Positions 34,900-59,155 of a stretch of DNA of 64,000 nt are shown here, in pieces; the stretch's first letter is position 1, and each line of letters begins with the position of its first letter. Origin of the DNA: Xestospongia bergquistia. Lineage: Eukaryota > Porifera > Demospongiae > Haplosclerida > Petrosiidae. Location: NCBI GenBank assembly GCA_963965975.1, contig CAWYPL010000003.1:1-64000 (forward strand), given 5' to 3'. The notes under the pieces are model-generated. The model saw only the letters and a list, made by a program, of their open reading frames with translations, was not told the DNA's origin and did not search any database. The position numbers were made by a program, and so were the translations under genes.

Positions 34900-35115
34900 T
34901 TAGATGTTGTTATATGTTATATATGGTGCAGATGTTATTGCACCAATTGGTACATTATGTAGGTTGCACAGATGTTATGTGCATTACTTATGGCACAGAT
35001 GTTATTGTGCATTGCGAATGGCACAGATGTAATTATGCCCATTTCATGTAATATATTACTGCACTGGTGTTATTGTGCATTATTTATGGCCAAGATGTTA
35101 TTGAGCCATTTTTTT
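34900..35115. repeat. Short tandem repeats in PLE-2 left arm
   Basis: Units of about 28-36 bp containing GCACAGATGTTATTGTGCATTA recur about six times. The same array appears inverted at about 36,590-36,815 in the right arm. Confidence 0.75.
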
Positions 35116-35129
35116 TGTTCATTTTGTTG

Positions 35130-36137: not shown

Positions 36138-36139
36138 GA

Positions 36140-36590: not shown

Positions 36591-37004
36591 GGCTCAACAA
36601 AATGAACAAAAAAAATGGCTCAATAACATCTTGGCCATAAATAATGCACAATAACACCAGTGCAATAATATATTACATGAAATGGGCATAATTACATCTG
36701 TGCCATTTGCAATGCACAATAACATCTGTGCCATAAGTAATGCACATAACATCTGTGCAACCAACATAATGTACCAATTGGTGCAATAACATCTGCACCA
36801 TATATAACATATAACAACATCTAAAACAAGTCTTATACCATCAAAAGACTTAGTTACAATCTAATAGGCAATTAACATCATTTGCTTATAATAACAACAA
36901 TAAGTTCTGTAATTGTTCTAAAACATCTTGGAACAAAGAAATATCATCATGATATAAATTATCAAAATTATGAAGAATAATATTTTTTTGGAAATCTTGA
37001 GGCA

Positions 37005-37070
37005 AAACATTTTCCCATACAGACCAAAAGAAGCAGCCATGTTTGGCTGCAAAAGCTTGTCAACCAAAGA
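37005..37070 (+). ncRNA. Hammerhead-like motif, PLE-2 right arm (further decayed)
   Basis: The counterpart of the left-arm motif. It reads CAAAAGA, then stem II GCAGCC/GGCTGC, then AAAA in place of GAAA. The G-to-A change is what CpG decay would give (GCGAAAG to GCAAAAG). Confidence 0.4.
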
Positions 37071-37154
37071 GTTTTAATTCAGTTCTGTTTCAGAGAATCT
37101 TTCCAAATCAATTATATAACAGAATGAGATGTTTAATCAAGTTAAAAGTGTTCA

Positions 37155-38650: not shown

Positions 38651-38827
38651 GACAGTAGGAAAAATACATCAACAGGACCTACGCTTATTTAGTAGACATC
38701 AATGTGAGTACAAATAAGGTGTAAATGTGGGTGTCAAATTTATAATATAGATCACTATACCTTAATAAGTCATATACATGTCACATAGATGTATCTTAGT
38801 ATAAAAATTAAAGCTTCTCTAACAAAC

Positions 38828-39267
38828 TGTTACGTATGCTTTTCCCAAGTCAGAATCCGCCTCTGCGTGTCAGGCATTTTCATCCAAGTATAAAGTTAAC
38901 TAAGTAAACTAAGTACATCTGTCATAAGGATGACATCTGTCATCCAGGCTAAAGTGGCATGTGTCAAATGAATTTCCTACTAGCATAAGTAGCATTTCCT
39001 ATTAGCTTAAGTAGATTAAGTAAACACCTGCAAACATAATCCTTAACTGCCAATTAAGTCAATAAGGAAACAGACTAGTCCCTTCCTTGATGTACCATAT
39101 AAATACTCTGGTAAAATCTGTAATAATGCATTCAGTGACATGATGTAAAGGATAACCAATAGCTTCAGTAAAGGATCACAGATCACAATGTATATTGGAG
39201 AGTATTAGTTATTATTTCTGCAAAGAACTCTGAAGGACTGGATACACATACAGTGCATTCTGTAACA
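38828..39267 (+). repeat. 5' LTR of gypsy C
   Basis: 440 bp, TGTTACGTATGC to CATTCTGTAACA. A CCATATAAATACTCTGG box near 39,095-39,111 is a likely TATA element. It shares most of its length with 49,489-49,888 and 58,725-59,155. Confidence 0.9.
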
Positions 39268-39285
39268 TGGTGGCAACAAAATGTG
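39268..39285 (+). promoter_or_regulatory. Primer binding site of gypsy C
   Basis: TGGTGGCAACAAAATGTG starts at the base after the LTR end and begins with TGG, as expected opposite a tRNA CCA terminus. The tRNA was not identified. Confidence 0.55.
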
Positions 39286-39604
39286 GATATAAACATATTT
39301 TGGAAACTATGACCTAATAGAAAGTGTCTACAAAATTTTCCAGTCATTTTGAACACATCTGAGCTCAGTTTCAGCAGCCAAATCAAGTTCAGTATATATG
39401 GAATATACAGTGCAGAATCTACATCATAAGTGGGTATTACTGCCCAAAATGACAAATCCAGCTTCAAGGGTCCAGTAAGATACACTTACCCTTGTTTTTC
39501 CTATAGGTTTCATAAGATTTGGTTCAATTTTAGATGTAAATTTGCTGAATTTGCTAAGCTAATCTAACCTGATTCTTGCCAATGAATGGCAGCCATTTTT
39601 TTTG

Positions 39605-39960
39605 TGAAAAGTTAAGGAGAGAAAGGAATTCTGAGTAAAGTCAGAATAATATATATATATATTTTTTCTCAAACTCAACAGATCAAGTTAATTTATACAC
39701 CCTTGGAAAGACAATATTATAAGGAGCAAGAATATATAGCTTTAATCTAATAATTCCCAGTAATCACTGAGAAATCGAAGGTTAAAGATGTGCACAAGGA
39801 ATTCTGGGTACAAGTTAAAATAATATTTTTTAAAACCCTCAACAGATCAAACAATTAATACATCTTCAGAAAGGTTATTTTATAAGAAACACAAATATAC
39901 AAGTTTCATTTAGAAACTCTCAGTATCACCAAGATATCAAAGGTTAAACATTGTGGGTGA
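39605..39960 (+). repeat. ~180-bp tandem duplication in gypsy C leader
   Basis: Two diverged units share GGAATTCTG, AACAGATCAA, TTTATA/AATACA, ATTATAAGGA/TTTATAAGAA and GGTTAAA. They lie in the noncoding leader between primer site and gag. The same part of gypsy D is hidden by the gap. Confidence 0.6.
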
Positions 39961-40564
39961 CCTTGACCTTTTGGTGCCAAAATTGTGAAGTTCAAAATAC
40001 CTAAATATCCCATAATTATCTCATAAACTACTAATCCTAGAGCAAAAGCATTTATATTTTTGGAACCCACATCAAAAATTACATATAACAGTCATTTTTC
40101 AACTCATTCTATGATAAAGTACTATATACTCATAGATAACTTATTATATATAGATAACTTATTATGGTACCCATCTTTATTTGTCACTAAATGTAACAAT
40201 ATATAGTATCTGTATATGCAACATTGTATGCATATGTAATATATATGCATAGCATAGGGAAAACCAAAGGTTCTTTTTCAAATAGATCAGAGGGGTTGAA
40301 TCTAGTTGTGGTTACATGGTGCAAAGCCCTCTAGGAAATTGGTGTTCATGCCAAAAGTACAGAGAGTGTGAGGCAATTCCCTCTAATCTACATTGGGAAA
40401 TCCTTACAGGGTTACTGAAGCCTGCTGAATACTGTGTGTTCATGGTTGAGGTAGTGATCAGTTGTGAAATAGGCTGTCCATAGAAGATAATATATTAAAT
40501 ATCAAGGTATATCACAGTCAGGTGTTAAGAGTACATTTAGCAATAGGATACTGTAATAACCAAT

Positions 40565-41610
40565 ATGAATAAGATAGGTAATCCAGACTTTAACTGGAGT
40601 GAACCATCACTAGAAAATTAATTCATCAGGTTAAAGAGAATGGCCAGAAACAACTTTATAGCACACAAAGCAACAAATAGAGAACAAGAAGGCAGTTTTC
40701 TAAGAGGCTGGATAGGAGACATAGGTGAGCAAAAACTAGAGAGTTTCAACTGGACAGATGATAACTTCTACACCCAAGATGAAATATTGGAAAGACTACA
40801 GCAGGTCATACAACCAAGTACTATAGCTCAAAATAAAAATACAAAAAAGATTTAATTACATATAGGCAGACAACAGAAACCTTTAGTCAATTTTTTGTAG
40901 AACTCAAGAGAAGGTATGATTTGGCCAAAGACAACTCTAAATACTTATGCAGGAAATGCAACAAATGCAAGGAATGTGTGGAAAGGATGAAACAAAAAGA
41001 CTTAATGTCTTATATATACATAGGTGTTAGGGAGCAAAGAGATAGGGAGCTAATGGACCAACTAGCAACAGCAGACCACACCCTAGAGAAGTATAAAAGC
41101 ATGTGAAGGTTGTGACACTACTGGTAATAATGCACAAATTTTTAATAACACAGGTACTGAAGAAGGTGGTGCTACAGGTGGTAATATACATGCTTTCAGA
41201 GGTAGAGGCCAAGGTAAAGACAATAATGTTAACAATAGAACAAAATGTCAAAACTGCAGAAACTTCCACAAAAAGGATGCATGTAGGGCTAAAGACCAAA
41301 AATGTAGTATATGTCATAAAATAGGTCATGTCAACAAAGTATGCCAGAGAAGACAAAAAACTGCAGCACAAGGTCAAACACAGAGAGGATTTATACCAAA
41401 ACAGAAACCCAGCAGATTTGGAGGTAAACAAATACATGAAATTGAAAATGATAATTTGTATATAGTAGATAGTGCAGGCAATCAGATAGGCATCACTGAC
41501 TATGATAGTGTCAACCAGGCCTCCCAGGAACTAAACTATGCAATAATTGATTCAATAGAATTTTCTTTAGATCCAGGTAGAGGCAAGCTAAAATATAATT
41601 CCAAGAATTA
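40565..41610 (+). pseudogene. gag: gag of gypsy C, broken
   Basis: Collinear with the better-kept gag of gypsy D (53,651-54,616). Open pieces begin at 40,640 and 40,921. Breaks relative to D include a stop near 40,618, a frame change near 40,850 and a 2-bp deletion near 41,102. Two zinc-knuckle boxes are recognisable at about 41,245-41,350 (CQNCRNFHKKDAC and CSICHKIGHVNKVC). Where D has TAG at the end of gag, C reads CAG and continues towards protease, showing gag and pol were one frame. Confidence 0.85.
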
Positions 41611-41632
41611 CAATGTTTAAATTAATCAAGTC

Positions 41633-42320
41633 TTGCATGCCAAAACATGGAAAGAAGCAGAGACAACAATCCTGATGTACCCATCTGATGACAAGGGAAA
41701 GATAACAGGAAGACCCAAGGGCATGAGGAGCAAGCTGGACACAGGTGCAGGTGCTAATATAATGTCTTTGAGTACTTACAGGTCTATCAATCCAAGTGAC
41801 TTTGACAAAGATGGTAACCCTACTGGAAATTTCCAAAGAACAAGCACTGGATTGAAATCATTTGGGGGCAGCCAGATACAACAATATGGTATAAAAACCA
41901 TCAAGTGTGTCTGGGACAAGAAACTGTGGTTATTAAATTTTCACATTGTAGATGGAAAAGGACCCATCATGATAGGGTTAGGAACAATGCTGAAGCTAGA
42001 CATGATCCAGTTTCATCCCCAAGTTCACATCTCTTGCATAGACATAAATGCAATCTGAGCCAGCCTGGTTAGAAAGGTTAGAAAGATGCAGAGATTGATC
42101 TTATGTCTAAGACTTATGACACTGATTCTGTTTTAGAATGACTAGAAGATGGCAATGAAGTCATAGACATCACCACAGGGTGGCATGAAGAAAAAGATTA
42201 TACAAAAATGCATAACTCAAATAATGTAAATATATTGTCCATAGCTAAGGTCCCAAGATACATCCACCCAGAGAGTGACCTTCAATCAAGACCATCAACA
42301 GTAAGGCAGATATAAAAGAA
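41633..42320 (+). pseudogene. pol: Protease region of gypsy C
   Basis: The 141-codon frame (41,633-42,058) contains SKLDTGAGANIMSLSTY, the retropepsin active site (DTGA), then IKTIKCVWDKKLWLLNFHIV and an acidic linker. It stops at 42,058 (CTGAGCC). A later TGA (42,139-42,141) followed by CTA is shared with gypsy D. Confidence 0.85.
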
Positions 42321-43020
42321 ATGTATCCTGAATGTTTTGGTGGTGTTGGTATGTTTGAAGATTTTGAGTATGAAATCAAGGTTGATCCAAAGGTGAAACC
42401 AGTGGTCCATGCAGTAAAGAGAGTCCCAATTGCTTTACAACCCAAACTAGAGGCAGCTCTAGATGAGATGGAGATGAAAGGTGTAATATCAAAGGTAGAA
42501 GGGTTTACCCCCTGGACCAACTCACATGTGATCCAGAGAAAGCAAATGGTAAGTTGAGGATTTGTTTAGATCCTAAGGATTTAAACACAGCAATCATAGA
42601 TGATCCCCATCCTATTCCTACCCTAGATGACATAACCCACAAGTTAAATGGTTCAACTTTGTATGGCAAGCTAGATGCAGATTAAGGTTATTGGAATGTA
42701 AAATTAACAAGAGTCATCTATGTTAACATTTAATTCCAATACTAGACTAGGTAAATACAAGTTTGACAGATTACCTTTTGGAGTTTCAGAGAAAGGTTGA
42801 TGAGACATACTATGCATGTAGAGGTGCAGTGGGAATAGCAAATGACATCTTGGTATATGGGACAGAAAGCAATTTTGACCTCCACTTGCATGAAGTTATG
42901 GAAGCCACAAGACAAGCAGGTATAAAATTAAACCATGATAAATGATATCATAAAGACCAAGTCATAGTTTTTCTGGAAATGTTTACACTCCAGCAGGTGT
43001 GAAACCAGACCCAAAATAAG
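42321..43020 (+). pseudogene. pol: Reverse transcriptase of gypsy C
   Basis: The RT start (42,321-42,557) has VDPKVKPVVHAVKRVPIAL, with Arg-Arg altered to Lys-Arg. The fingers part then shifts frame at 42,540. LGKYKFDRLPFGV is kept near 42,750. The catalytic part is IANDILVYG (42,763-42,945 frame), where D has IADDILVYG, so the first catalytic Asp is Asn here. Part of the thumb is deleted relative to D. Confidence 0.85.
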
Positions 43021-43545
43021 GTGGAAGCCATAAAGAAGATGGAAGGTATGGTGACCTATTTAGGTAAATTTGTTCAAAATGTTTCAGATATGACATATAA
43101 CATGAGGAAACTCCTCAAAAAGAATGCTTTATTTCAGTGGACTGAGACCCATGAAGCTGGTTTCCAGAAGCTGAAGGAGATGTTTACCAGTCAAGAGTGT
43201 TTAGCTTACTGTGACCAAAAGAAAGATATCTTTTTGCAGGTTGATGCTTCAATCCAAGGATTAGGTGCAGCCCTGATACAAAAAGATCAGCAAGGTAGAC
43301 TGAAACCAGTTGCATATGCATCAAAGAGTCTCACTGATGCTGAGAAGAGATATTCAAATATTGAGTGTGAATTACTTGCAGTTGTCTTTGGCTGTATTAG
43401 ATTCCATCACTATTTGTATGCTAGAAAATTTGAATGTCATAGTGACGATAAACCTCTAGAAGACATCCATCTGAAACATTAAGTGCATTCCAGGTAAGAA
43501 CGTGGCAATAGCAGATGCCTTATCATGAGTAAACCCTAATGGCAA
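43021..43545 (+). pseudogene. pol: RNase H domain of gypsy C
   Basis: The 153-codon frame to 43,482 includes IFLQVDASIQGLGAALIQKD, KPVAYASKSLTDAEKRYSN and ECHSDDKPLEDI, where D has SDHKPLE (the catalytic His is changed to Asp here). A deletion after 43,480 removes about 60 bp present in D. The end of the domain (GKNVAIADALS) is followed by TGA where CGA is expected. Confidence 0.88.
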
Positions 43546-43559
43546 TATCAAGGTTAAAG

Positions 43560-44985
43560 GGTTGGATGTTACAGTTCATAAAATGAGTCCATGTATTAGT
43601 CATTTGCAGCTGGTGCATATCCAGAGAGCTGCCCAGGAAGACCAGGTGTTACAGGTGTTGATGAGCAAAATGACAGAAGGCTTTCCAGAAAACATCAAGC
43701 AACTTCCTGTTGTATTGAGACCATTTTGGCAAATCAGAGATGATATGTCAATAGAGCACTCCTGTTTGGCATACCAGGGTAGGTATTATATACCAAAACT
43801 ATTAGAGAACAAGCCTTAGCAAGTCTCCATATAGGTCATCCAGGTGTGTTAAAGATGAAGCTTAGGGCACAGCAAAGTAAATACTGGTTAGGTATCAATA
43901 AGGACATTGAGAACCATGTAATGTCATGTGATCCTTGTCAGGTAAATGGTAGAAGTCAGCAGAAGGAACCAATAATACCTTTTGAAGTGCCAAACAGACC
44001 TGGGCAAAGAGTAGGTATAGACCTATTTCACCACAACAAGGGTTGGCATGTTATTGTAACTGATGATACAAGCCCTGCCAGCAACAGCTTCTGAAGATGT
44101 GATCTCTGCCTGGACCAAGGAGTTTAATGTGTGCAAGTCAGTGGGCTATACAAAACCTAAAGTCAGAATGAAAGTGAAGGCACACTACCAGATGAGCCTA
44201 GGTAGGATCCTGGCTATGTGTCAGGCACACTACAAGCCCATCTTGTCTTCACTGCTAGTGAGGTGGAGCTAGAGTGTACACATTGGGACCCAAAAAATGG
44301 TGAACTATGCCTCAGTAGGTTGAGGCCAGGGGAAACCCTGGTGGAGGGCCATAGCAATTCTGACATGCAAATCAATCATCAAACTTGGGTGTAGGGGCAC
44401 AAGTCTTGTTTTGCAGAATATGGAATACCAGAAGATGTTGTAAGTGACAATGGGAGTCAGTTCACTAGCCAGGAGTACCAGTTGTTTGTAGCATCATATG
44501 GTTTCAAGCTGACCACAAGCAGTCCTCATTATCCAAGAGGTCATGGGTTTGTAGAGCAACAGGTGCAAACCATCAAGAAGCTACTTACCAAGTACATCCA
44601 AGATGGATCTGACCCATTCCTAGCACTGCTTCAGCTGAGAACCACACCAATTGATAGCAGAACCCCATCACCAAGTGGGCTGCTACAAAACAGGAAGCTG
44701 TGCACAACACTGCCTGTGAACATCAGGCATCCTCCCAATAGTGAGGCCATCAGAGTATTACTATGAGCCATACAGATGTTTAACCATCATGATGCTCATG
44801 CCAAGGAGATGATAGATCTCATCCCAAGGCAGCCTGTTTGGGTGCAAGACCCACATACCAAAACATGGTATGAAGGTACTATTGTGTCAAAGGCTGAGAC
44901 ACCAAGATCATATATTGTGCAAACAAAATCAAGAATAGTGAGGAGAATAGAATTCACCTCAAAGAAAGAAGGGTACCAGCAGTGA
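43560..44985 (+). pseudogene. pol: Integrase of gypsy C, split by a 28S rRNA patch
   Basis: The zinc-binding HHCC domain lies at about 43,830-43,945 (IGHPGVLKMKLRAQ, ENHVMSCDPCQ). The core begins VGIDLFHHNKGWHVIV (44,010-44,060), then loses about 18 bp and is interrupted at 44,111-44,400 by ribosomal sequence. It resumes with VVSDNGSQFTSQEY (about 44,440-44,480) and HYPRGHGFVEQQVQ (44,530-44,570). The C-terminal domain is PRQPVWVQDPHTKTWYEGTIVSKAE (44,830-44,905, with RRIEFTSKK following). Aside from the insert, this copy keeps residues lost in D. Confidence 0.88.
44111..44400 (+). pseudogene. 28S rRNA gene fragment inserted in integrase
   Basis: About 290 nt match a conserved part of large-subunit rRNA in sense orientation. 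Landmarks are GGACCAAGGAGTTTAATGTG, GGGCTATACAAAACCTAAAG, AATGAAAGTGAAGGC, GGAGCTAGAG, ATGGTGAACTATGCCT, AGGGGAAACCCTGGTGGAG and ATTCTGACATGCAAATCAAT. CpG sites of the functional rRNA appear as TG or CA (for example GACATGCAAATCAATCATC for the CpG-bearing original). Gypsy D has ATT at this point, so three bases are replaced and no target duplication is visible. It is a pseudogene, not an rDNA unit. Confidence 0.88.
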
Positions 44986-45445
44986 AAGATCAGAAAGTAA
45001 TAAGATTACAGGTAAAACCAAAAGAAGTGCCAAAGGTACCAGTTATACAGGAAAGTGTAAATAGGCCTAGCATAGTGAAAGTTCCATTAGTAAAAAGTGA
45101 GTATAAAAGTGTAACCAACAAGGAAAGTGAAAAGGTGGAAGGAAAAATCCCAAGATTTGTACCAAAATGAGAGCAAAAAGAGGAAAAGAAAAGTGAAAGT
45201 GAGGAAGTGATACAAAAAAGTGAAGCCCAGAACCCTAGGGTTGGCCATAATAATGCCACACCCACAGTCTCAGCCTCCCAATCCCCTGACCCAAAACCAA
45301 ATCCTATACCACCAATGAAACCCAAGGAGGTCAGCAAGAGCTCATAAGCCTAACCCAAGGTATATGGACACTATAGTAAAGGAAAAAGGTAATACACTGA
45401 ATTACCTAAGTGGACTTTCTTTCGTGAAAGCAAAGAAAACTGTAA
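44985..45445 (+). pseudogene. pol: Pol C-terminal tail of gypsy C
   Basis: A Lys/Glu/Val-rich frame (44,982-45,170, KPKEVPKVPVIQESVNRPS) is followed by SEEVIQKSEAQNPRVGHNN-like text and ASQSPDPKPNPIPPM, ending near 45,430. The same tail is in gypsy D (58,070-58,533). It resembles the polar extension after integrase in gypsy polyproteins. Confidence 0.7.
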
Positions 45446-45549
45446 ATATAGAACATATATATTATTGTAAATCAGATTAATAAGTGTATATAATATTGCA
45501 TAATTTAATAATTTTAATAATTGTTAAAATTATAATAATTGTAATAATG
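45446..45549 (+). other. AT-rich 3' UTR of gypsy C up to PLE-1
   Basis: Repeats of TAATAATTGTAATAA, continued on the far side of PLE-1 at 49,366-49,480. The last 15 bases (ATAATTGTAATAATG, 45,535-45,549) are the PLE-1 target duplication. Confidence 0.8.
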
Positions 45550-45621
45550 TTTTATTAGATCAAGGGAACTCCCAAACACCGACTTTTCTGGTTTTAATAG
45601 GTCTTTATTAGCTTTATCTCT

Positions 45622-45663
45622 ATAACAAACTAGTTTTGACTTGTAGGTCTTCTTCAGTGTTAT
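45622..45663 (-). ncRNA. Type I hammerhead ribozyme motif at PLE-1 3' end
   Basis: Minus strand in order: ATAACA (stem I), CTGAAGA (core CUGANGA, 45,651-45,657), A, GAC-CTACAA-GTC (stem II, 45,638-45,649), AAAA (45,634-45,637, GAAA expected), CTAGTT (minimal stem III of about 2 bp), then TGTTAT, which pairs perfectly with ATAACA. The cleavage site would be after TT (UUU). Only G12 is changed (to A). Minimal type I hammerheads with a very short stem III are known from PLEs and act best as dimers. This copy is probably inactive. Confidence 0.75.
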
Positions 45664-45806
45664 GAGTGCTTGGTAACACCATTCGTTTTTTATAGAAAAT
45701 TCTAAGTAAATTTGCAGTAGGAAAAGCTAGCCAATATTTTCTAAATTGCAAGTTGATATTTTTAAAACAATGTATCTATGGGGGGTATACATACCCCCCA
45801 GAATGT

Positions 45807-46400
45807 TTATATAGAGTCTATTAGTTTCCATAGGTCTTCATTTTCATCAAGGGTCTCCTCCTCTCTGTCATCTGATTCTAGATTTCTTAGCATTTGATCT
45901 AGTTCATTTAGGGATGCTGATATGGAGTATTCCTGGTTTAGTAGGTGGTCTATTTCCTCTGACAGACTAGATGTAGCAGGTTGTGGTCTTGGGTCTTGTA
46001 AAGGCTCTGTAGCTTCTAGAGGTATAATGATGGGCTCTGGTTGGTGATATGGTCTTGAATGCTTTGTTTGAGTATCTAGTTCATGCAGTATCCAAGGGAA
46101 AATCTCCTTGTTTTTCAGTAATGATTGTTGATATATATAACTGTTAGTGTTCTTAGGATCTGCCTGGTATGCTCTGGTTTCTATGCATGAATTTTTAGAT
46201 CTTGGTATCTTTGGTATGGCTTTAAAATTGGACAAAAGTTTTCTTTGGTGAGTTTTAGTATGCCTTTTTAGGGTATCTTTCCTCAGTGAACTATAATTAC
46301 AATCTAGGCAGTAGTGTTTGTTGTTGTGACTTTTTAAGTGTCTTTTTAGATCTCCATGTTGTTGTACATGTTGCCACGTCTTTCACATAGTAGATTCTCC
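45807..46400 (-). pseudogene. C2H2 zinc-finger ORF downstream of GIY-YIG in PLE-1
   Basis: The 142-codon frame ending at 45,807 extends upstream in frame through YCLDCNYSSLRKDTLKRHTK (about 46,250-46,310), a canonical C2H2 finger (C-x2-C-x12-H-x3-H). Before it, HGDLKRHLKSH looks like the end of another finger, whose Cys codons now read TGA and TGG. The rest is polar with KNKEIFPWILHELD and an acidic C-terminus (SDDREEETLDENEDLWKL). It begins about 250 bp after the GIY-YIG stop. It could be a second PLE ORF (nucleic-acid-binding protein) or captured host sequence. Confidence 0.6.
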
Positions 46401-46649
46401 ATTTCTGTTGTTCTTTATTTAGTCATTGTTGTTGTTTATTTGTTATTATATCCTTTAACCTTTATGCAAGCTGTATGTTTATCGTTGCTATGTTTGATCG
46501 TCTTTTGTTTACTTTTGAGGTGTCATCATGATTTGCTTCACAATCGACCCTTGTCGGTTATCAACCATTGGTGAGTGTGATTAAAAAAGTGCAGTTTCAA
46601 TTCAGATCTTCATTGTGCCATTCCAATTCAGGTTAGGTTTCATATTGGA
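46401..46649 (-). other. Spacer between PLE-1 endonuclease and zinc-finger ORF
   Basis: No conserved frame on the minus strand. The plus frame at 46,356-46,574 is probably chance. Confidence 0.4.
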
Positions 46650-46945
46650 TTACCATCTACCATTGAGGCCTCTTGGCATTAGGGTATTTAGTAGAGTCAT
46701 CCAAGATTCTTCCAATCTCAGCCTTCTGTTTTTATCTTTTTCTTGGTCAACTATTGTGATTGAGTAGTCATCTATGGTGTGATTATATGATCTATAGTGT
46801 ATTGCTACTGGGTGATCCTTATTGGTTCTTATGGAGCTTTCATGGTTTCTACATCTACAGTTCATACTGTTGGAGGTCTTCCCCACATATTGAATATTGC
46901 AGATATTACAGGTCATCACATAAATGATGTCATTTGATTTGCAGT
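46650..46945 (-). pseudogene. GIY-YIG endonuclease domain of PLE-1
   Basis: The frame reads DIIYVMTCNICNIQYVGKT, a GIY-YIG motif (IIY and YVG), followed by CRCRNHESSIR and the HPVAIHYRSYNH box, then EESWMTLLNTLMPRGLN at the end. The preceding linker contains PCLQARCLTC (about 47,015-47,045), the Cys-rich motif usual before PLE endonucleases. A frame change at about 46,946 separates it from the upstream part. It would nick target DNA for priming. Confidence 0.88.
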
Positions 46946-49300
46946 TAAAGTTGCCTCATTGGATATGAGTAATTTTCCCTGCTTGAGACTACATAAGAGG
47001 TGTTCATGTGACTGCATGTTAAGCATCTTGCTTGCAGGCAAGGTTGACTTAAATTGGGTTTGTTGTTGAAATGTATGTTTGATTTAACTAATTTGTCCTT
47101 TAAGTTTGGACTTCTGCTGTAGGTGATTTGTATTTGGTCTGGTGTGATTGCTGATTTCCTTGTCATCAGTAATAGTCCTTCATATTTTTTTAAGATCTGA
47201 TGAAGATTGGGGTTCATAGGGTTGTAGTTGGTGATTAGTCTGATCTTGTTGGTACTTTTCTTTGGGGTTGGTCTTAGGAGGATTAGTCTATCCATTTTTC
47301 TTACTGTTTCCATGGCTTCATCAAGTAGGGTGATTGGGTATCTTCTGAGTTTCAGTTGGTTATATATTTTCTTGGCTTCTTGTTCAAAATGGTGGTCTTC
47401 TGTACATATTCTCTTGCATCTGATTAGAAGTCCATAAGGGACTGAGTTTTTCTGATTTCTTGGGTGAGCAGAGTTGTAATGTATATAGTATTTCTGGTCA
47501 GTTGGCTTGTGGTACATTCTAGTATATATTCTGTTGTTTTTGAGATCTGTACACCATTGTGTCTAGGAATGGGATTTCATTCTGGTCAATATTGTATGTA
47601 AATTTTATTTTGTTGTGATGGTTGTTGAATGCTTTCAAGAATTTGTCTAATTCCATTCTTCCAAATTGCCAGATCATCAATATGTCATCAATAAACCTTA
47701 ACCAGGTTTTTGGTTGTTTAGGGTAGTTTGAGAGGAAGTTTGTTTCCAGGTAGTGCATAAAGATAATGGCATAATTGGGTGCCATTCTGGTTCCCATAGC
47801 TGTCCCTTGGGTTTGTTCATATAGTTGTCCATTGAAGTTGAAGAAGATTTTTGTAAGTACTTGGAGGGCTAGGTTAGAAATGAACATTTTTAGAAGGGTG
47901 TCAGTCCCTGTTTCCTCCATCATTCTATTTATGGCTGCTATGCCTTCATTATGTGAAATGTTTGTATATAGGTAACTGACATCAATGGTTACAAGCAGGT
48001 CTTCAGGGTCTAGTTGAATGTTTTTCATTATGTTGATAAAGTGGGTTGTGTCCATTATATAACTGGGTATTCTGGGTGTATATTGTTTCAAATGGGAGTC
48101 CACAAAGGCTGAGATTTTTTCTGTGATAGATCCTATGCTGTTAACTATTGGTCTTCCTGGATTTCCTGGTTTGTGTATTTTTGGTAGTATATAAAAAGTT
48201 GATGTCCTGGGATTCTTTGTTTGTAGGCTTTCCTTGGTTGTGTCTGTTATGATTCCTAATCTCCAAGCTTGATCAATAAGGTGATGTATGTATTTGTTGT
48301 AATTGGTTGTTGGGTCTGAAGTTAGTGGCTTGTAGTGTTCTGGGTTGAGTAATTGTCTGTGGGCTTCCTGAATATAATCTGCTTTATTCATGATGACTAT
48401 ACTGCCTCCTTTGTCTGCTGGCTTAATAACTATGTTGTTGTTATGTAGGTCCCTCATAGCCTGAACTTGTTTCTGTGGTAAGTTATTCTTTCTTCTAGAT
48501 GTGGTGGGGGTTTCTAGTTCTTTTAAATAGGCTTTTATTATAGAGTGTCTATAAGTATCTAGAAAGGGATCTTGTCCACTAGGTGGGGTCCAGCCTGAAC
48601 TGGGCTGTAGTATCTGATTGTGGTTTGGTTGTTGTGATATTTGGGATTGGTTTCCTATATCTGTAAAATGGTATTTTAATCTGACTCTTCTATCAAAAAG
48701 GAGTATGTCTTGAAGCATTTTTGCTGGGTGGTCTCTTCTGGGGGTTGGTATGAAATGGGAGTCCTTTCGACAAAAGATTGATTTCATCCTTGGATAGGTG
48801 ATGATTACTTAAATTTGTTATTGGGGGGTTGGGCTTCTGATACCTGTGATTATTATGTTTCTTTTTGCTTGGTTGTTGCTGGTTGAGGTGGGAGTGGGTT
48901 GTTTGGACTTCTTCCTTTTGAGTTCCTGTTGTGTTTCTCTTGCTATTTGTGCTAGTATGTCTTCTATTGTATTCCATTGGTCCTGGTTGGTTAGGGTTTT
49001 TAAGTTATGTAGGATGGGGGAGTATTCCTGTTCAAGTCTGCTGGATCTGTCTTTCCAGTAATCTCTGAGCTTTTCTGTAAGGATCAAACCTGCTCTCTGT
49101 AGAGAGTCTTCCCATTCAGTAGTGAATGTTGCTGGAGTATCTGGTATTCTGGGTGTGACCTTAGGTATGAGACCTCTGGGGGGTCTGCTTGAATCTATGG
49201 ATGCTTGGAGCAACTCTGTGTGATGATTGGCTCTTTCTATGCCTCTGGTTAGCTTGAAAAGGGCTTTTAGATGTCCTTGTAAGGAACTGTCCAGTTCCAC
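46945..49300 (-). pseudogene. N-terminal domain and reverse transcriptase of PLE-1
   Basis: The first frame (48,818-49,300, 160 codons from 49,300) is a Ser/Thr/Lys-rich N-terminal domain. The next (48,693-48,977) contains NHHLSKDEINLLSKGL, the usual PLE motif before RT. A frame change near 48,765 leads to the 422-codon frame 47,519-48,787. This has ADKGGSIVIMN, YILPKIHKPGNPGRPIVN, LLVTIDVSYLYTNI, GTAMGTRMAPNYA and the catalytic box RFIDDILMIW, then IPFLDTMVY. A one-base frame change at 47,518 leads to the thumb and linker (46,945-47,517). All RT catalytic aspartates are present. Few lesions suggest recent activity. Confidence 0.9.
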
Positions 49301-49380
49301 TCTGTTTTTGATTATGTGTAAGTTTGGAGTATTAGTTGCTATGGTTTGGTTTATATAATGGCATTATAATTGTAATAATG

Positions 49381-49488
49381 ATAATAATTGTAATAATTGT
49401 AATTGTAATAAGTGCATAATATTGTATAATTATATTATGATGTGATCCTATATCAGTAAATAGGCATTTATTTTTTTTGTGAGGGGGA
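49381..49488 (+). other. Gypsy C 3' UTR end and polypurine tract
   Basis: AT-rich TAATAATTGTAAT repeats resume after PLE-1, then GTGAGGGGGA (49,479-49,488) abuts the LTR. The same tract precedes the gypsy D LTR, so it is the likely plus-strand primer. Confidence 0.75.
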
Positions 49489-49888
49489 TGTTACATATGC
49501 TTTTCCCAAGTCAGATGATATTGCCTGACATGCAGAGGCAGATTCTAAGTATAAAGTTAACTAAGTAAACTAAGTACATCTGTCATAAGGATGACATCTG
49601 TCATCCAGGCTTAAGTGGCATGTGTCAAATCAATTTCCTACTAGCATAAGTAGCATTTCCTATTAGCTTAAGTAGATTAAGTAAACACATGCAAACATAA
49701 TCCTTAACTGCCAATTAAGTCAATAAGGAAACAGACTAGTCCCTTCATTGATGTACCATATGCATTCAGTGACATGATGTAAAGGATAACCAATAGCTTC
49801 AATAAAGGATCACAGATCACAATATATATAGGAGAGTATTAGTTATTATTTCTGCAAAGAACTCTGAAGGACTGGATACACAGTAACA
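49489..49888 (+). repeat. 3' LTR of gypsy C, with a 30-bp micro-inversion
   Basis: It aligns with 38,828-39,267 except that 49,517-49,546 (GATATTGCCTGACATGCAGA and the 10 bases after) is the reverse complement of the corresponding 38,852-38,881. It also lacks the TATA-box part (about 39,093-39,125 of the 5' LTR) and part of the end (CATTCTG). Confidence 0.88.
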
Positions 49889-49893
49889 CAAAC

Positions 49894-50986
49894 AGTTCAG
49901 TTACTTTTAACATTAAAATGGAAAAAAAACCCCTAAAAGCAGCAAACAAAATATGGTCAAGAAATTTGAAATAGAAGTCACATTGGAACTTGAACTCGGA
50001 TGAATATGAGTATCACATAGCTATATATATGTACAAAACTTAGTTTCTTGGACAAATGCTTCTGTTGCGATTGATACAAAGAGAAAAATAAATATAACTG
50101 CCAATTGTTGCGACTTACAAAACCAGACGTATTTGCATATTGTATAAACACACGTGTACAATCTGAAGCAGCTAAGTGGAACATCTCAAGAATTGCAGGG
50201 ATAGAAAACAAAAATAAATCCCAGAAAAACCAAATGATCTTGTATTTGGTACATAAATATGATTACCAAACATGGAATACCCATCGTTTGACAAATTAAT
50301 TGGTGTGCATACTCATGGTACTTGTGTACATGCCTACAAAATGTGAAGCCTGTACAGCAAAAACAAAGGCCTGTAGGACAGATGACAACAAACCATCGCA
50401 TATGCAAAATCAACCGAAAAACAATAGAAAATACACCTGTGTTATTTTTTGGTTTATTAATTTTCAGGGAGCATCTGGATTTTCTGGATCTGGATTGGAA
50501 CTAAAGGCAAAAAAAGACGGTCCAGCAATGATGTCATGATCTTGTATTTGGTACAGATCTACTCCTAATATCGATTAGTTCACTTGGCAAAAAGGTGGGC
50601 ACAATGCGATACAGGTGTCAATTTTAATATATACATTTGCATCTTTGGAAATTCTGAGCTATTCGTTCCAGAAACATTTTGATAAATGCTATCTAAATAG
50701 TAACTAAGTAACTATACTAAAACTTTTACTATAGTAAAACCTATCTTGCTCGGACCTAATTTTGTGCGGAGACCTTGTCATCCATGGATAACTCTCAAAT
50801 GAACTGGAATTTTAAGCAGTTTACCTCCTTTGCACGCACAAACCTGTCCTATGCAGACAATGGACACCTCTCTGCACTGAAGAACTCTTAAAACCAGTTT
50901 TGCAAGGACAAAATTTAAGCAAAATTTACACAGGCAGTGTCATCTCACTTCATAAAAGGCAAATGAAAGTGCACAGAAGTGCATTA
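49894..50986. other. CpG-retaining intergenic segment
   Basis: CpG is clearly more frequent than in surrounding DNA. Frames such as 50,105-50,299 and 50,300-50,539 show no recognisable protein. A segment from about 50,734 (TATAGTAAAACCTATCTTGC) looks like the start of a further pogo-like MITE, but no matching end was found. Confidence 0.45.
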
Positions 50987-51172
50987 CAGGTTGGTCCCGC
51001 TTAAGCCTGATTTTTTGGAGCATGAAAATATGTCCAGCTTAGCAGTAATCCGGCTTAACAGTACTAATTTGCATTAAATTAATTAAATTATACAAATAAT
51101 AAATTATGCATAAAATCCGGGCTAAAGGGGAATCTGGCTTAACCGCTGTACGGCTTAAGGGGGACCCACCTG
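50987..51172. mobile_element. Tigger/pogo-like MITE, copy 1
   Basis: 186 bp with ends CAGGTTGGTCCCGCTTAAGC and, inverted, CAGGTGGGTCCCCCTTAAGC. It is flanked by TA (50,985-50,986 and 51,173-51,174). It is clearly the same family as 57,809-57,995. No coding capacity. Confidence 0.85.
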
Positions 51173-51812
51173 TATTATAATTTTTAGCGATTTCTTTTAT
51201 GTATGTTCCTTGAATTTTAAATTAAGTTAAACATGTAAATGTGTTACCAACGATGCAATATCGTAAAACCTGTGTTGGACGGTCTCCCGCTCATACCTGT
51301 AAAGTTTTTTGTAAAAAGGAAATAAACTGCTGTTTCTAATATTGCAAATTGTTTATTGTTTAGATATTTCTTATATTTACTGGTAATATAAATACAAAAG
51401 ACCTCAATGACTATTTACACAGTATACAGAATATATTCCTAATTACAGAAATTTTTAATTTGAATAGAGTTTGTCATGAAATTTGAGCTATAAATATTTA
51501 CGAAAAATAACGATGAAAGTTTCATCATACATACACACTGTATCATCATAAGCAATGATCTATATCATTTCGCAGGTCAAGCGAATATCCGTTTTATAGT
51601 GGTTTGAGATAGAACACCCTATGCTTTGGCCTCAACACAATACATTAGCCTTAGTACCTAATATCTCATGGATACAATCAAACCTGCATTTTTGTACCTC
51701 TTGCTTAACCACTGAGTAAACCTCCCTCCAAAATGTGGCATCACTACTTTATTGAAACTCGACTTGATAAATCTTTACCTCGAATTTGTTATTAATTTTG
51801 GTTAAGAAATTA
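51173..51812. other. CpG-retaining intergenic segment
   Basis: No coding potential. CGTAAAACCTGTGTTGGACGG (about 51,271) and ACAATCAAACCTGCATTTTT (about 51,675) resemble starts of other pogo-like short elements. Confidence 0.35.
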
Positions 51813-53365: not shown

Positions 53366-53650
53366 CAAATAGATCAGAGGTGTTGAGTCTAGTTGTGGTT
53401 ACATGGTGCAAAGCCCTTGAGGAAATTGGTGTTCATGCCAAAAGTACAGAGAGTGTGAGGCAATTCCCTCTAATCTACATTTAGAAATCCTTACAGGGTT
53501 ACTGAAGCCCACTGAGTACTGTGTGTTGATGGTTAAGATAGTGATCAGTTGTGTAATAGGCTGTCCACAGTAGATAATATATTAAATATCAAGGTATATC
53601 ACAGTCAGGTGTTAAAGTACACATAGTAATAGGATACTGTAATAGCCAAT
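53366..53650 (+). other. Leader of gypsy D
   Basis: Noncoding leader matching 40,279-40,564 of gypsy C (GTCTAGTTGTGGTTACATGG, AGTGTGAGGCAATTCCCTCT). Confidence 0.8.
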
Positions 53651-54616
53651 ATGAGTAAGATAGGTAATCCAGACTTTAACTGGAGTGCATCATCACTAGA
53701 ACAGGAATTCATCAGGTTCAAGAAAGTGGCCAGAAACAACTTTATAGCACACAAAACAACAAATAGAGAACAACAAGGCAGTTTTCTAAGAGGCTGGATA
53801 GGAGGCATAGGTGAAGAAAAACCAGAGAGTTTCAACTGGACAGATGATAACTTCTACAACCCAGATGAAATATTGGAAAGACTACAGCAGGTAATACAAC
53901 CAAGTACTATACCTCAAAATAATAAATACAAAAAAGATCTAATTACATACAGGCAGACAACAGAAACCTTTAGTCAATTTTTTGTAGAACTCAAGAGAAA
54001 GTATGATTTGGCCAAAGACAACTCCAAATACTTATGCAGGGAACACAACACATGCAAGGAGTGCATAGACAGGATGAAACAAGAAGACCTAATGTCTTAT
54101 ATATACACAGGGGTTAAGAAGCAAAGAGCTAGGGAGCTGATAGACCAACTAGCAACAGCAGACCACACTCTAGAGAAGTATAAAAGCATATGTGAAGGAT
54201 GTGACATCACTGATAATAATGCACAAATTTTTAATAATACAGGTGCAGAAGAAGGTGGTGCTACAGGTGGTAATATATATGCTTTCAGAGGTAAAGGCCA
54301 AGGTAAAAACAATAACTACAACAATAGAACAAAATGTCAAAACTGTGGAAACTTTCACAAAAAGGATCCATGTAGGGCTAAAGACCAAAAATGTAATATT
54401 TGTCATAAAATAGGTCACTTCAGCAAAGTATGCCAGAGAAGACAACAAACTGCAGCACAAGTTCAAGCACAGAGAAGATTTACACCAAAACAGAAACCCG
54501 GCAGATTTGGAGGTAAACAAATACATGAAATTGAAAATGACAATTTGTATATAGTAGATAGTGCAGGCAATCAGATAGGCATAACTGACTATGAAAGTGT
54601 CAACCAGGCCTTCTAG
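53651..54616 (+). CDS. gag: gag of gypsy D, best-preserved copy
   Basis: A 321-codon open frame from ATG 53,651. The first ~185 residues are capsid-like and helical (FIRFKKVARNNFIAHKTTNR, FSQFFVELKRKYDLAK). Gly/Asn-rich linker sequence follows. Then two zinc knuckles lie at about residues 230-275: CQNCGNFHKKDPC and CNICHKIGHFSKVC. A basic Gln/Arg stretch leads to the end. The product would assemble particles and bind element RNA. The TAG at 54,614-54,616 replaces CAG present in gypsy C, so it is a nonsense mutation and the natural frame ran on into protease. Being in a dead element, expression is doubtful. Confidence 0.85.
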   Translation: MSKIGNPDFNWSASSLEQEFIRFKKVARNNFIAHKTTNREQQGSFLRGWIGGIGEEKPESFNWTDDNFYNPDEILERLQQVIQPSTIPQNNKYKKDLITYRQTTETFSQFFVELKRKYDLAKDNSKYLCREHNTCKECIDRMKQEDLMSYIYTGVKKQRARELIDQLATADHTLEKYKSICEGCDITDNNAQIFNNTGAEEGGATGGNIYAFRGKGQGKNNNYNNRTKCQNCGNFHKKDPCRAKDQKCNICHKIGHFSKVCQRRQQTAAQVQAQRRFTPKQKPGRFGGKQIHEIENDNLYIVDSAGNQIGITDYESVNQAF

Positions 54617-55231
54617 GAACTAAACTATGCAATAATTGATTCAATAAAATTTTCTTTAGATCCAGGTACAGGCAAGCTAAATTATAATTCCAAGAATTCC
54701 AATGTTGAAATTAATCAAGTTTTGCATGCCAAAACATGGAAAGAAGCAGAGACAACAATTATGATGTACCCATCTGATGACAAGGGAAAGATCACAGGAA
54801 GACCCAAGGGCATGAGGAGCAAGCTGGACACAGGTGCAGGTGCTAATATAATGTATTTGAGTGCTTACAAGTCTCTCAATCCTAGTGACTTTGACAAAGA
54901 TGGTAACCCTACTGGAATTTTCCAAAGGGCAAGCACTGTATTGAAATCATTTGGGGGCAGGCAGATACAACAATATGGTATAAAAACCATAAAGTGTGCC
55001 TGGGACAAGAAACTGTGGTTATTAAATTTTCACATTGTAGATGCAGAAGGACCCATCCTGATAGGGTTAGGAACAATGCCGAAGTTAGACATGATCCAGT
55101 TTCATCCCCAAGTTCATATCTCTTGCATAGACATAAATGCGATCCAACCCAGCCTGGCCAGGCAAGGTGAGAAAGATGTAGAGATTGATGTTATGTCTAA
55201 GACTAATGACAATAATTCTGTTTCAGAATGA
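54617..55231 (+). pseudogene. pol: Protease region of gypsy D
   Basis: In frame with gag after the TAG. The 169-codon piece from 54,722 contains RSKLDTGAGANIMYLSAYKS (retropepsin DTGA), KTIKCAWDKKLWLLNFHIVD and ILIGLGTMPKLDMIQFHP. It ends with an acidic linker and TGA at 55,229-55,231, followed by CTA. The frame continues open beyond this stop into RT. Confidence 0.88.
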
Positions 55232-56200
55232 CTAGAAGATGACAATGAAGTCATAGACATCACCACAGGGTGGCATGAAGAAATAGATGTAAAAATGTAT
55301 GACTCAAATAATGCAAATATTCTGTCCATACCTAGGGGCCCAAGATACATCCACCCAGACAGTGATCTTCATTCAAGACCAACCATCAACAGTAAAGCAG
55401 ATTTAAAAGAAATGTACCCCAAATGTTTTGGTGGTGTTGGTATGTTCAAGGATTTTGAATATGAAATTAAGGTTGATCCAAAGGTGAAACCAGTGGTCCA
55501 TGCACCAAGGAGAGTCCCAATTGCTTTACAACTCAAACTAGAGGCAGCTCTAGATGAGATGGAGAAGAAAGGTATAATATCAAAGGTAGAAGGGTTTACC
55601 CCCTGGACCAACTCACTTGTGATCTGGGAGAAAGCAAATGGTAAGTTGAGGATTTGTTTAAATCCTAAGGATTTAAATACAGCAATCATAGATGATTACC
55701 ATCCTATTCCTACCCTACATGACATAACCCACAAGTTAAATGGTTCAACTTTGTATGGCAAGCTAGATGTAGATTCAGGTTATTGGAATGTAAAATTAAC
55801 AAAAGAGTCATCTATGTTAACAACATTTAATTTCAATATACTAGACTAGGTAAATATAAGTTTGAAAGATTACCTTTTGGGGTTAAAACCTCTCAGAATA
55901 CATTTCAGAGAAAGGTTGATGAAACATGCTATGCATGCAGAGGTGTGGTGGGAATAGCAGATGACATTTTGGTATATGGGACAGAAAGCAATTTTGACCT
56001 CCACTTGTATGAAGTTATGGAAGCCACAAGACAAGCAGGTATAAAGTTGAACTATGATGAATGTATCATAAAGACCAAGTCCTGTAGTTCTTTTGGAAAT
56101 GTTTACACTCCAGCAGGTGTGAAACCAGACCCAAAGAAGGTGGAAGCCATAAATAAGATGGAATCTCCTATCAACAAGCAACAGTTGCAGAGTTTCCTAG
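55232..56200 (+). pseudogene. pol: Reverse transcriptase of gypsy D
   Basis: The 184-codon frame to 55,849 includes IKVDPKVKPVVHAPRRVPIA, RICLNPKDLNTAI and the box YGKLDVDSGYWNVKL. A 2-bp insertion near 55,845 creates a stop (gypsy C keeps the normal reading there). The second frame from about 55,860 has FERLPFGVKTSQNTFQRKVD, then the catalytic box VGIADDILVYG (55,945 on) and the thumb IKTKSCSSFGNVYTPAGVKPD. Both catalytic aspartates are present. The IADD form is seen in some gypsy lineages (mag-like). Confidence 0.9.
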
Positions 56201-56745
56201 GTATGTTGACCTATTTAGGTCAATCTGTTCAAAATGTTTCAGATATGACATATAATATGAGGAAACTCCTCAAAGAGAATGCTTTATTTCAGTGGACTGA
56301 GACCCATGAAGCTGATTTCCAAAAGCTGAAGGAGGTGTTTACCAGTGAGTGTTTAGCATATTTTGACCAAAAGAGAGGTATCTTTTTGCAGGTTGATGCT
56401 TCAATCCAAGGATTAGGTGCAGCCCTGATGCAAAAAGATCAGCAAGGTAGACTGAAACCAGTTGCATATGCATCAAAGAGTCTCACTGATGTTGAGAAGA
56501 GATATTCAAATATTGAGCATGAATTACTTGCAGTTGTCTTTGACTGTATTAGATTCCATCACTGTTTGTATGCTAGAAAATGTGAATGTCACAGTGACCA
56601 TAAACCTTTAGAAGACATCTATCTGAAACATTTAAGTGATGCCCCTGCAAGGCTACAGAGACTATTGCTGAAACTCCTGCCATGTAATTTAACCATTAAG
56701 TACATTCCAGGTAAGAATGTGGCAGTAACAGATGCCTTCTCATGA
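56201..56745 (+). pseudogene. pol: RNase H of gypsy D
   Basis: Continuous with the RT frame. It includes FLGMLTYLGQSVQNVSDMTY (connection), IFLQVDASIQGLGAALMQKD with the catalytic Asp, PVAYASKSLTDVEKRYSNIE with Glu, and CECHSDHKPLEDIYLKHLS. It ends KYIPGKNVAVTDAFS then TGA, the position where CGA arginine is expected. Gypsy C has the same TGA. Confidence 0.9.
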
Positions 56746-58070
56746 GTAAACCCTAATGGCAACACCAAGGTTAAAGGGTTGGATGTTACAGTTCATGAAA
56801 TGAGTCCATATATTAGTCATTTGCAGCAGGTGCATATCCAGAGAGCCACCCAGGAAGACCAGGTGCTACAGATGTTGATGAGCAAAATGATAGAAGGCTT
56901 TCCAGAACACATCAAGCAACTTCCTGTGGTATTGAGACCATTTTGGCAAATTAGAGATGATTTGTCAATAGAGCACCCCTGTTTGACATACCAAGGTAGG
57001 TATTATATACCTAAAGCTATTAGAGAACAAGCCTCAGCAAGTCTCCATATAGGTCATCCAGGTATATTAAAGAAGAAGCATAGGGCACAGCAAAGTATGT
57101 ACTGGTTAGGTATCAATAAGGACATTGAGAACCATGTAATGTCATGCGATCCTTGTCAGGTAAATGGTAGAAGTCAGCCAAAGGAACCAATAATACCTTT
57201 TGCAGTGCCAAACAGACCTTGCCAATGAGTAGGTACAGATCTATTTCACCACAACAAGGGTTGGTATGTTATTGTAGCTGATTATTACTCCAAATACCCA
57301 TGGATACAAGCCCTGCCAGCAACAGGTTCTAAGGATGTGATCTCTGCCATTAAGTCTTGTTTTGCAGAATATGGCATACCAGAAGATGTCATAAGTGACA
57401 ATGGGAGTCAGTTCACCAGCCAGGAGTACCAGTTGTTCACAGCATCATATGGTTTCAAGCTGACCACAAGCAGTCCCCACTATCCAAGAGGTCATGCTTT
57501 TGTAGAGTGACAGGTGCAAAGCATCAAGAAGCTACTTACCAAGTGCAGCCAAGATGGGTCTGACCCATTACTAGCACTGCTTCAGCTGAGAACCACAACA
57601 ATTGACAGCAGAACCCCATCACCAAGTGAGCTGCTACAAAACAGGAAACTGTGCACAACACTGCCTGTGAACATCAGGCCTCCTCTCAATAGTGAGGCCA
57701 TCACAGCATCATTGCAAGCCATGCAGAGGTTTAGCCATCATGATGCTCATGCCAAGGAGATGATAGATCTCATCCCAAGGCAACCTGTTTCTGTGCAAGA
57801 CCCACATACAGGTGGGTCCCACTTAAGCCGGATTTTTTGGGAGCATGCAAATCTGTCCGGCTTATCAATTATCTGGCTTATCAGTACTAATTTGCATTAA
57901 ATTAATTAAATTATACAAAAATGAAATTATACAAAAAATCCGGGCTAAGCGGGAATCCGGCTTAACCGCTGTATGGCTTAAGCGGGACCCACCTGTACCA
58001 GAACATGGTATGAAGGTGCTACTGTGTCCAAGGCTGAGACCCCAAGATCATATATGGTGCAAACAAAGAT
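56746..58070 (+). pseudogene. pol: Integrase of gypsy D, interrupted by a MITE
   Basis: The 149-codon frame 56,779-57,228 has the zinc-binding HHCC (LHIGHPGILKKKHRAQ, ENHVMSCDPCQ). After a TGA the core continues VGTDLFHHNKGWYVIVADYY (about 57,229-57,290), DVISDNGSQFTSQEYQLF (57,385-57,440) and HYPRGHAFVE, then TGA where C reads CAA. Frame 57,514 on gives the end of the core and PRQPVSVQDPHT. The MITE splits the C-terminal domain at 57,809. After it WYEGATVSKAETPRSY resumes. About 70 bp at the end are deleted relative to C. Confidence 0.9.
57809..57995. mobile_element. Tigger/pogo-like MITE, copy 2, in gypsy D integrase
   Basis: 187 bp with ends CAGGTGGGTCCCACTTAAGC and, inverted, CAGGTGGGTCCCGCTTAAGC. 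It is flanked by TA (57,807-57,808 and 57,996-57,997). Gypsy C has the unoccupied site ACCCACATACCAAAACATGG with a single TA, proving insertion and target duplication. CpG is retained inside, suggesting it is younger than its host. Confidence 0.93.
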
Positions 58071-58540
58071 CAGAAAGTGATAAGGTTGCAGGTAAAGCCA
58101 AAAGAAGTGCCAAAGGTACCAGTTATACAGGAAAGTGTAAATAGGCCTAGTGTAGTGAAAGTTCCATTAGTAAAAAGTGAGAATGATAGTATATTGAAAG
58201 TGAAATGATGGAGGGAAAAACCCCATGGTTTGTGCCAAAATGAGAGCAAAAGAGGAAAAGAAAAGTGAAAGTGAGGAAGTAATACAAAAAAGTGAAGCCC
58301 AAAACCCCAGGGTTGGCCATAATAATGCCACACCCACAGTCTCAGCCTCCCAAGCCCCTGACCCAAAACCAAATCCTATACCACCAATGGAACTGAGGAG
58401 GTCAGCAAGAGCTCATAAGCCTAACCCAAGGTATATGGCCACCATAGTAAAGGAAATAGGTAATACTATGAATTACCCATGTGGACTTTCTTTCATGAAA
58501 GCAAAGAAAACTGTAAATATAGAACATGTATGATATTGTA
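58071..58540 (+). pseudogene. pol: Pol C-terminal tail of gypsy D
   Basis: Matches 44,985-45,445 of gypsy C: VPKVPVIQESVNRPSVV-like text, then the 102-codon frame 58,225-58,533 with SEEVIQKSEAQNPRVGHNN, RRSARAHKPNPRYMATIVKE and CGLSFMKAKKTVNIEHV. Lys/Glu/Pro-rich, no catalytic motif. Confidence 0.7.
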
Positions 58541-58724
58541 AATCAGACTAATAAGTATAATATTATATAATTTTAAAGATTGTTATAATTGTAATAATTA
58601 TAATAATTGTAGTAATGATAATAATTGTAGTAACTGTAATTGTAATAAGTGTATAATATTGTATAATTCTATTATGTGATCCTATATAAGTAAATAGGCA
58701 TTTATTATTTTTTTGTGAGGGGGA
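58541..58724 (+). other. AT-rich 3' UTR and polypurine tract of gypsy D
   Basis: TAATAATTGTAATAA repeats, then GTGAGGGGGA directly before the LTR, as in gypsy C. Confidence 0.75.
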
Positions 58725-59155
58725 TGTTACATATGCTGTTCCTAAGTTAGAATCCACCTCTACGTGTCAGGCAAATTCCATCTAAATGTCATAAGGATGA
58801 CATCTGTCATCCAGGCTAAAGTGGTATGTGTCAAATCAATTTCCTACCAGCATAAGCAGCATTTCCTATTAGCATAAGTAGATTAAGTAAACACATTCAA
58901 ACCTTAAGCCTTAACCTTAATCTTTAACTGTCAATTAAATCAATAAGGAAGCAGACTAATCCCTTCCTGTAATGTACCATATAAATACTCTGGCAAAATT
59001 CAATAATATTCATTCAATGACTTGATGTAAAGGAATAACCAATAGCTTGAATAAAGGATCACAGATCACATGTATATTGGAGAGTATTAGTTATTTATTA
59101 CTCTGCAAAGAACTCTGAAGGACTGGATATACACATACTAGTGCATTCTATAACA
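58725..59155 (+). repeat. 3' LTR of gypsy D
   Basis: 431 bp, TGTTACATATGC to CATTCTATAACA, homologous to both gypsy C LTRs. The CCATATAAATACTCTGG TATA region is kept (about 58,977-58,993). It has the same orientation of the segment that is inverted in the gypsy C 3' LTR, which shows which state is ancestral. Confidence 0.9.

Follow-up and report, generated by a model that had tools for sequence, protein, structure and literature searches.

A 290-nucleotide piece of large-subunit ribosomal RNA (rRNA) sits seamlessly, and with no target duplication, in the integrase gene of a gypsy-type LTR retrotransposon, and the patch looks older than the integration of the copy that carries it. The reality of the patch is confirmed by comparison with a sister copy, which retains the empty site. 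An accident of this general kind is already known and its setting, a dead gypsy copy, is unusual; what is new here is the apparent order of the two ages. We give a probability of about 0.4 to an account in which the patch was acquired by template switching in an ancestor of the carrying copy (copy C), lost its CpGs while resident in the genome, and was later mobilised in trans to give copy C.

If the chimera was mobile, copy C is a datable fossil of rRNA uptake and onward transmission by an LTR element, in which element sequence flanks the insert and the empty site of a sister copy lies nearby. A CpG-loss clock taken from repeats in the window—that is, the first 64,000 bases of an 80,357-bp contig (C18)—allows patching before integration to be tested against patching after it without recourse to a second genome.

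Identity and borders of the patch

The preliminary description read the insert as sense-strand large-subunit rRNA, staking this on an alignment to 28S rRNA, and the reading is borne out: the Rfam covariance model for eukaryotic large-subunit rRNA (RF02543) matches the insert in sense orientation at 132.8 bits (E = 1.2e-31), against a gathering score of 50, which places it within the family. When the scan is restricted to 43900–44600, the match spans model positions 665 to about 930 of 3401 (129.9 bits). Coordinates of the patch, its host element, and the sister copy (copy D) are collected in Table 1.

Table 1. Features of the patched element and its sister copy, in window positions
Feature	Position	Strand	Basis
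Copy C of the gypsy-type LTR element, interrupted by the patch, by a nested Penelope-like element, and by small deletions	38828..49888	+	Self-comparison, LTR borders, gaps
Left target-site duplication CAAAC of C	38823..38827	+	LTR borders
5′ LTR of C	38828..39267	+	LTR borders
Large-subunit rRNA patch, 290 nt, sense to the element, 0 CpG	44111..44400	+	RF02543, borders against D, CpG count
Penelope-like ORFs nested in C between interior and 3′ LTR	46945..49300	-	ORFs, RVT_1, relatives
3′ LTR of C, with a 27-nt gap relative to the 5′ LTR	49489..49888	+	LTR borders
Right target-site duplication CAAAC of C	49889..49893	+	LTR borders
C-homologous part of the interior of sister copy D, bearing the empty site	53366..58724	+	Self-comparison
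Uninterrupted integrase core of D, spanning the empty site	57229..57507	+	Pfam rve PF00665, E = 5.1e-14
ATT of D, the only bases that the patch replaces in C	57349..57351	+	Border comparison of C and D
3′ LTR of D	58725..59155	+	LTR borders

At the borders, copy C reads ...CTCTGCC, the patch, and AAGTCTTG..., whereas copy D reads ...CTCTGCC, ATT, and AAGTCTTG.... The patch thus takes the place of exactly the ATT of D (GCC-ATT-AAG), its content is wholly missing from D, and D's integrase is uninterrupted at the site. Alignment to D therefore fixes both borders to the base and upholds the earlier claim that D preserves an empty site at which ATT alone is replaced. The corresponding piece of D matches the Pfam integrase core (rve) at profile positions 25–102 and lies downstream of RNase H (55945–56745); because the core continues across the site, D represents the older state. 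The net gain in C is 287 nt, which breaks the reading frame, and the frame running in from the integrase meets a stop at 44270, inside the patch.

The left junction reads GCC followed by TGGACC, where the 28S rRNA encoded on contig C9 of the same assembly has ACACGGACC. The T at this junction would be the former C of a lost CpG, and microhomology on the left is hence 0 nt. The right junction reads GGGGCA-C-AAG, where the C9 28S has GGGGCGAAAG; CG has become CA, one base is mismatched, and AAG is then common to both. Microhomology on the right is thus at most AAG, separated from the rRNA by one mismatch, and the chance that at least 3 nt are shared at one of two random junctions is 0.10. Inspection for microhomology, as the preliminary description had proposed, therefore turns up AAG on one side and nothing on the other, no better than chance, and so the junctions leave reverse-transcriptase switching and end joining on an equal footing.

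No poly(A) stands at the right junction, and the empty-site comparison reveals neither the target-site duplication nor the tail at the insert ends that mark a LINE retropseudogene or a SINE. Together with the 3-bp replacement, these absences agree with the earlier statement that the patch is not an rDNA, SINE, or transposon insertion. By this junction anatomy, rDNA, SINE, and LINE insertion were rejected as its origin.

The host element and its sister copy

Copy C possesses the two LTRs around gag-pol and the short target duplication of a gypsy-type LTR retrotransposon, and RNase H domains are present (Pfam). Two LTRs with CAAAC at both outer sides make it a single integration, a 5-bp perfect match being expected by chance about once in 1000; the duplication depends on the 3′ LTR having lost 13 nt close to its end, as the 5′ LTR of C and the LTR end of D suggest.

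Compared from 40279 up to the patch, C and D show 19 gaps. Bases are missing in C at 14 of these (12 frame-breaking) and in D at 5 (3 frame-breaking). Among 890 compared codons, C has four stops that are all open in D, a count biased against C, as the ORFs of D were picked for being open. C is a dead copy. One of its losses, 65 nt at 43477 (against 56629–56693 in D), is a slippage-type deletion between the short direct repeats CATTTAAGT and CATTAAGT, with the patch about 0.6 kb away. The two LTRs of C also differ in the orientation of a 17-nt stretch (38859–38875 and 49523–49539), which reads GCCTCTGCGTGTCAGGC in one and the near reverse complement in the other. This is a small hairpin-type inversion, and the 3′ LTR of D is oriented like the 5′ LTR of C.

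The element nested in C is read as Penelope-like, the family name being our own assignment; one of its ORFs contains a Pfam reverse transcriptase domain (RVT_1, 47519–48787). A protein search with it returned 2603 relatives, and among the 120 listed, identity reaches 93%, with relatives from molluscs and a turtle at 41%–46%. The gag protein has 22 relatives that are 72%–91% identical over 14%–100% of the query; a gag search of viral contigs gave no match, and one of genome contigs gave 28 pattern matches with no true relative among them.

Age of the patch relative to copy C

No CpG remains in the patch. The aligned Rfam consensus has 16; at 12 of these the patch has TG or CA, and at the other 4, all lower-case (weakly conserved) consensus positions, it has something else. 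The losses counted here number 14: the 12 from the consensus (2 of them weakly conserved) and one at each end from the C9 28S. The clock was calibrated on seven repeat pairs of the window. With the MITE pair left out, CpGs were lost at 78 times the non-CpG rate (95% interval 63–100); with all seven pairs, the ratio is 60 (49–73), and from C and D alone, it is 84 (59–117). The MITE pair retained more CpGs than repeat pairs of similar age.

The LTR pair of C differs at 7 of 363 non-CpG sites outside the rearranged stretch, about 1% per branch, whereas the interiors of C and D differ at 305 of 4734 sites, or 3.2% per branch. At the LTR age of C, the probability that all 14 CpGs would have been lost is 0.0043 (0.0007–0.0073 across the three calibrations), or 0.013 with only 10 CpG sites counted (0.003–0.019); at the split of C and D, it is 0.32 (0.12–0.38). 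Probabilities at the age of C were computed with 357 LTR sites rather than 363, to small effect.

Non-CpG sites independently point the same way. The patch deviates at 5 of the 84 sites at which the Rfam consensus and the C9 28S agree, for which (5 or more) the probability is 0.0043 at the age of C and 0.14 at the C–D split; some of these differences may belong to the donor itself, and if 3 of 84 are counted as mutations, the values become 0.07 and 0.51. Scoring the rearranged LTR stretch as substitutions raises the LTR count to 15 of 387, with which the probabilities at the age of C are 0.068 (14 CpGs), 0.126 (10 CpGs), 0.036 (5 of 84), and 0.24 (3 of 84).

There is thus moderate evidence that the patch sequence predates the integration of C, an age inference that rests on seven LTR differences and on a rate of CpG loss that varies among repeats. 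This leaves three possibilities: that the chimera has moved one or more times, that its donor had decayed beforehand, or that the LTR clock misleads, running low through gene conversion between the LTRs or by chance. The preliminary description had concluded from the decayed CpGs that the patch is old. The decay is complete, but as CpGs are lost about 78 times faster than other sites, by itself it implies only moderate age. APOBEC-like editing of minus-strand cDNA was considered as the cause of the CpG loss and is unsupported (CA against TG, 10 to 4; P = 0.18).

Origin of the patch

Retroviruses and Ty elements package cellular RNA, with non-homologous recombination, and a two-switch "patch" capture of host RNA is what the gypsy insert may have in common with them. 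In the preferred reading, gypsy RNA would have been under reverse transcription in an ancestor of C; the enzyme would have quit that RNA at ...AAGTCTTG, moved on to large-subunit rRNA for about 290 nt, and rejoined the element RNA three bases upstream of its point of departure. The chimeric DNA, its integrase gene broken, would have remained in the genome until its CpGs were gone before being re-copied with the proteins of intact relatives and integrating as C between CAAAC repeats. We infer from these data that the rRNA entered by template switching and that the chimera was mobilised in trans; uptake in an ancestor of C, whether by switching or by break repair in an older copy, followed by retrotransposition, is the simplest account with these ages.

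Comparable fusions exist. PMC13174262 describes 28S pieces fused to LINE-1 at 18 loci (median 269 nt, 83% sense) and suggests RNA ligation or template switching as their source. The patch is like them in being a few hundred nucleotides of 28S, mostly sense in their case, joined to a retroelement; unlike them, it interrupts the pol gene of an LTR element and is flanked by that element at either end, whereas the LINE-1 fusions join rRNA to a non-LTR element in target-primed reverse transcription (PMC13174262). Template switching during replication is also invoked for complex insertions in Triticeae LTR-retrotransposons, as the title of PMC1950507 indicates; that case concerns complex elements sharing an LTR, with no mention of rRNA at the start of its abstract, and differs in this from the patch. 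Across literature on rRNA in LTR elements, rRNA retrocopies, and template switching, drawn mostly from outside subscription journals, no title was recognised as reporting 28S sequence patched into the interior of an LTR retrotransposon.

The chief competitor, for which the odds are appreciable though short of even, is a double-strand break in an integrated gypsy copy (C or its parent), repaired by end joining with rRNA cDNA or rDNA at the cost of 3 bp. Class 2 templated insertions at such breaks bear microdeletions, microhomology, and extra nucleotides (PMC5110952). The patch likewise lacks target-site duplication and poly(A) and has a small deletion, little microhomology, and possibly an RNA-derived donor; because this anatomy is shared, its junctions are not diagnostic of template switching, and the 3-nt deletion, the one mismatched base, and the AAG at most are just as compatible with rRNA cDNA or rDNA having been captured at a break. 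Such donors are also on record in a preprint on wild-type growing yeast, in which rDNA accounts for 2 and Ty elements for 3 of 8 break insertions (PMC10802722). Break repair in C itself from fresh rRNA or rDNA should have left a patch younger than the LTR divergence, as would be expected of class 2 insertions relative to the copy they interrupt, but CpG loss and substitutions suggest an older one, a signal that weakens when the higher LTR count is used. Had the break been mended in a parent copy, the ages predicted would be those of the preferred account. A DNA fragment would, moreover, be expected in antisense as often as in sense. Given the sense orientation and the resemblance to the reported 28S/LINE-1 chimeras, template switching is slightly favoured over break repair. 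The preliminary proposal of template switching by reverse transcriptase is to this extent sustained: the seamless patch without duplication is real, and its sense orientation within the reverse-transcribed interior is as predicted, but the junctions are not diagnostic.

Functional rRNA and rDNA far outnumber any 28S pseudogene. This weighs against the idea that the patch came from a 28S pseudogene, or a transcript of one, in which decay had already set in, entering by switching or break repair at or after the integration of C; such a donor would account for the total CpG loss and the 5 differences in 84 sites without any mobile chimera. Nor did a search of the assembly, most of which is not the putative genome of C18, turn up such a pseudogene, the other 28S matches lying on C9 only. 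We regard a decayed donor as improbable. Still more so is a separate LINE-type retroposition of rRNA into C, as an rRNA retropseudogene or a 28S-derived SINE: 28S pieces are mobilised with LINE-1 in mammals (PMC13174262), but target-site duplication and poly(A) tail are absent, the fragment is internal, and 3 bp are replaced, and an endonuclease-independent version would merge with break repair. An assembly chimera or sequencing artefact is hardly credible; contig C18 itself appears foreign to its assembly, but with all CpGs lost, no modern rRNA read can have been joined in, and C continues on both flanks.

The ages thus favour, without proving, a mobile gypsy–28S chimera. That a gypsy lineage with rRNA in its integrase gene stayed mobile in trans, LTR elements thereby carrying rRNA as cargo, is rather doubtful. 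The patch occurs once in the assembly, where the putative genome of C18 is represented by small contigs only, and no second patched copy was found there. Used as a protein query, the junction-spanning ORF (44060–44269) found no homologue. Searches for exact patterns gave 0 matches for the 3′ junction in IMG/VR and 0 for the empty site in viral contigs, and 1 for the 5′ junction in viral contigs (locus L046). This match is taken as chance; L046 was rejected as a patched relative, as blastn (E up to 1e-3) aligns nothing else of it to the window and Rfam gives no match.

The contig and its assembly

The assembly comprises 146.46 Mb in 21 contigs, 15 large and six small. The large contigs are animal, with Wnt exons on C6, C9, and C13, and the cox1 on C21 is one that we take to be of sponge type. 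Five DNA queries from C18 carried repeat sequence and one carried the patch, in searches that skipped very common words, such that absence is not proof. Outside C18, one repeat query had no match; a second matched 99 bp at 76% on C1, a third C19 and C16 at 67%–84%, a fourth C20 at 81%, and the fifth C17 and C16 at 65%–70%, with further matches on C13 (95 bp, 76%) and C1 (about 210 bp, 68%). The patch query matched 28S at three places, on C9 only, at 78%–79%. Compared with the RNase H piece of D, gypsy proteins of the large contigs do not exceed 40% identity (144 scored of 930 candidates), and among 20 sampled stretches, one per other contig, only that of C19 has nucleotide similarity to the window.

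The C9 28S is excluded as donor of the patch by a compensated helix difference, reading CCAGAGG/CTCTGG where both patch and Rfam consensus read CCAGGGG/CCCTGG. Since matches to the large contigs are weak and the C9 28S was not the donor, C18 most likely comes from a second eukaryote, foreign to an otherwise sponge-like assembly. The window has an observed-to-expected CpG ratio of 0.074; samples of C17 and C20 give 0.068 and 0.031, and those of C16 and C19 give 0.194. This ratio by itself would not mark C18 as foreign, as some large-contig samples are nearly as poor (0.09).

The 18S genes beside the rDNA of C9 (loci L007 and L008, at about 5.66 and 5.84 Mb) do not look like those of an animal. 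This region may be a misjoined piece of another eukaryote, though C9 also has Wnt exons. An odd CpG content was considered for this rDNA and dismissed; without masked letters, it is 0.88–1.15, ordinary for rDNA.

Two further repeats of the window have relatives on other contigs. A 980-bp inverted repeat (34616–35595 and 36129–37108), 98.6% identical between its arms around a 0.5-kb centre, has related pieces on C16 and C17 at 65%–70%. A MITE-like element with inverted ends CAGGTGGGTCCC sits at a TA in copy D (57807–57995), and further copies lie at 50985–51174 in the window and, at 81%, on C20.
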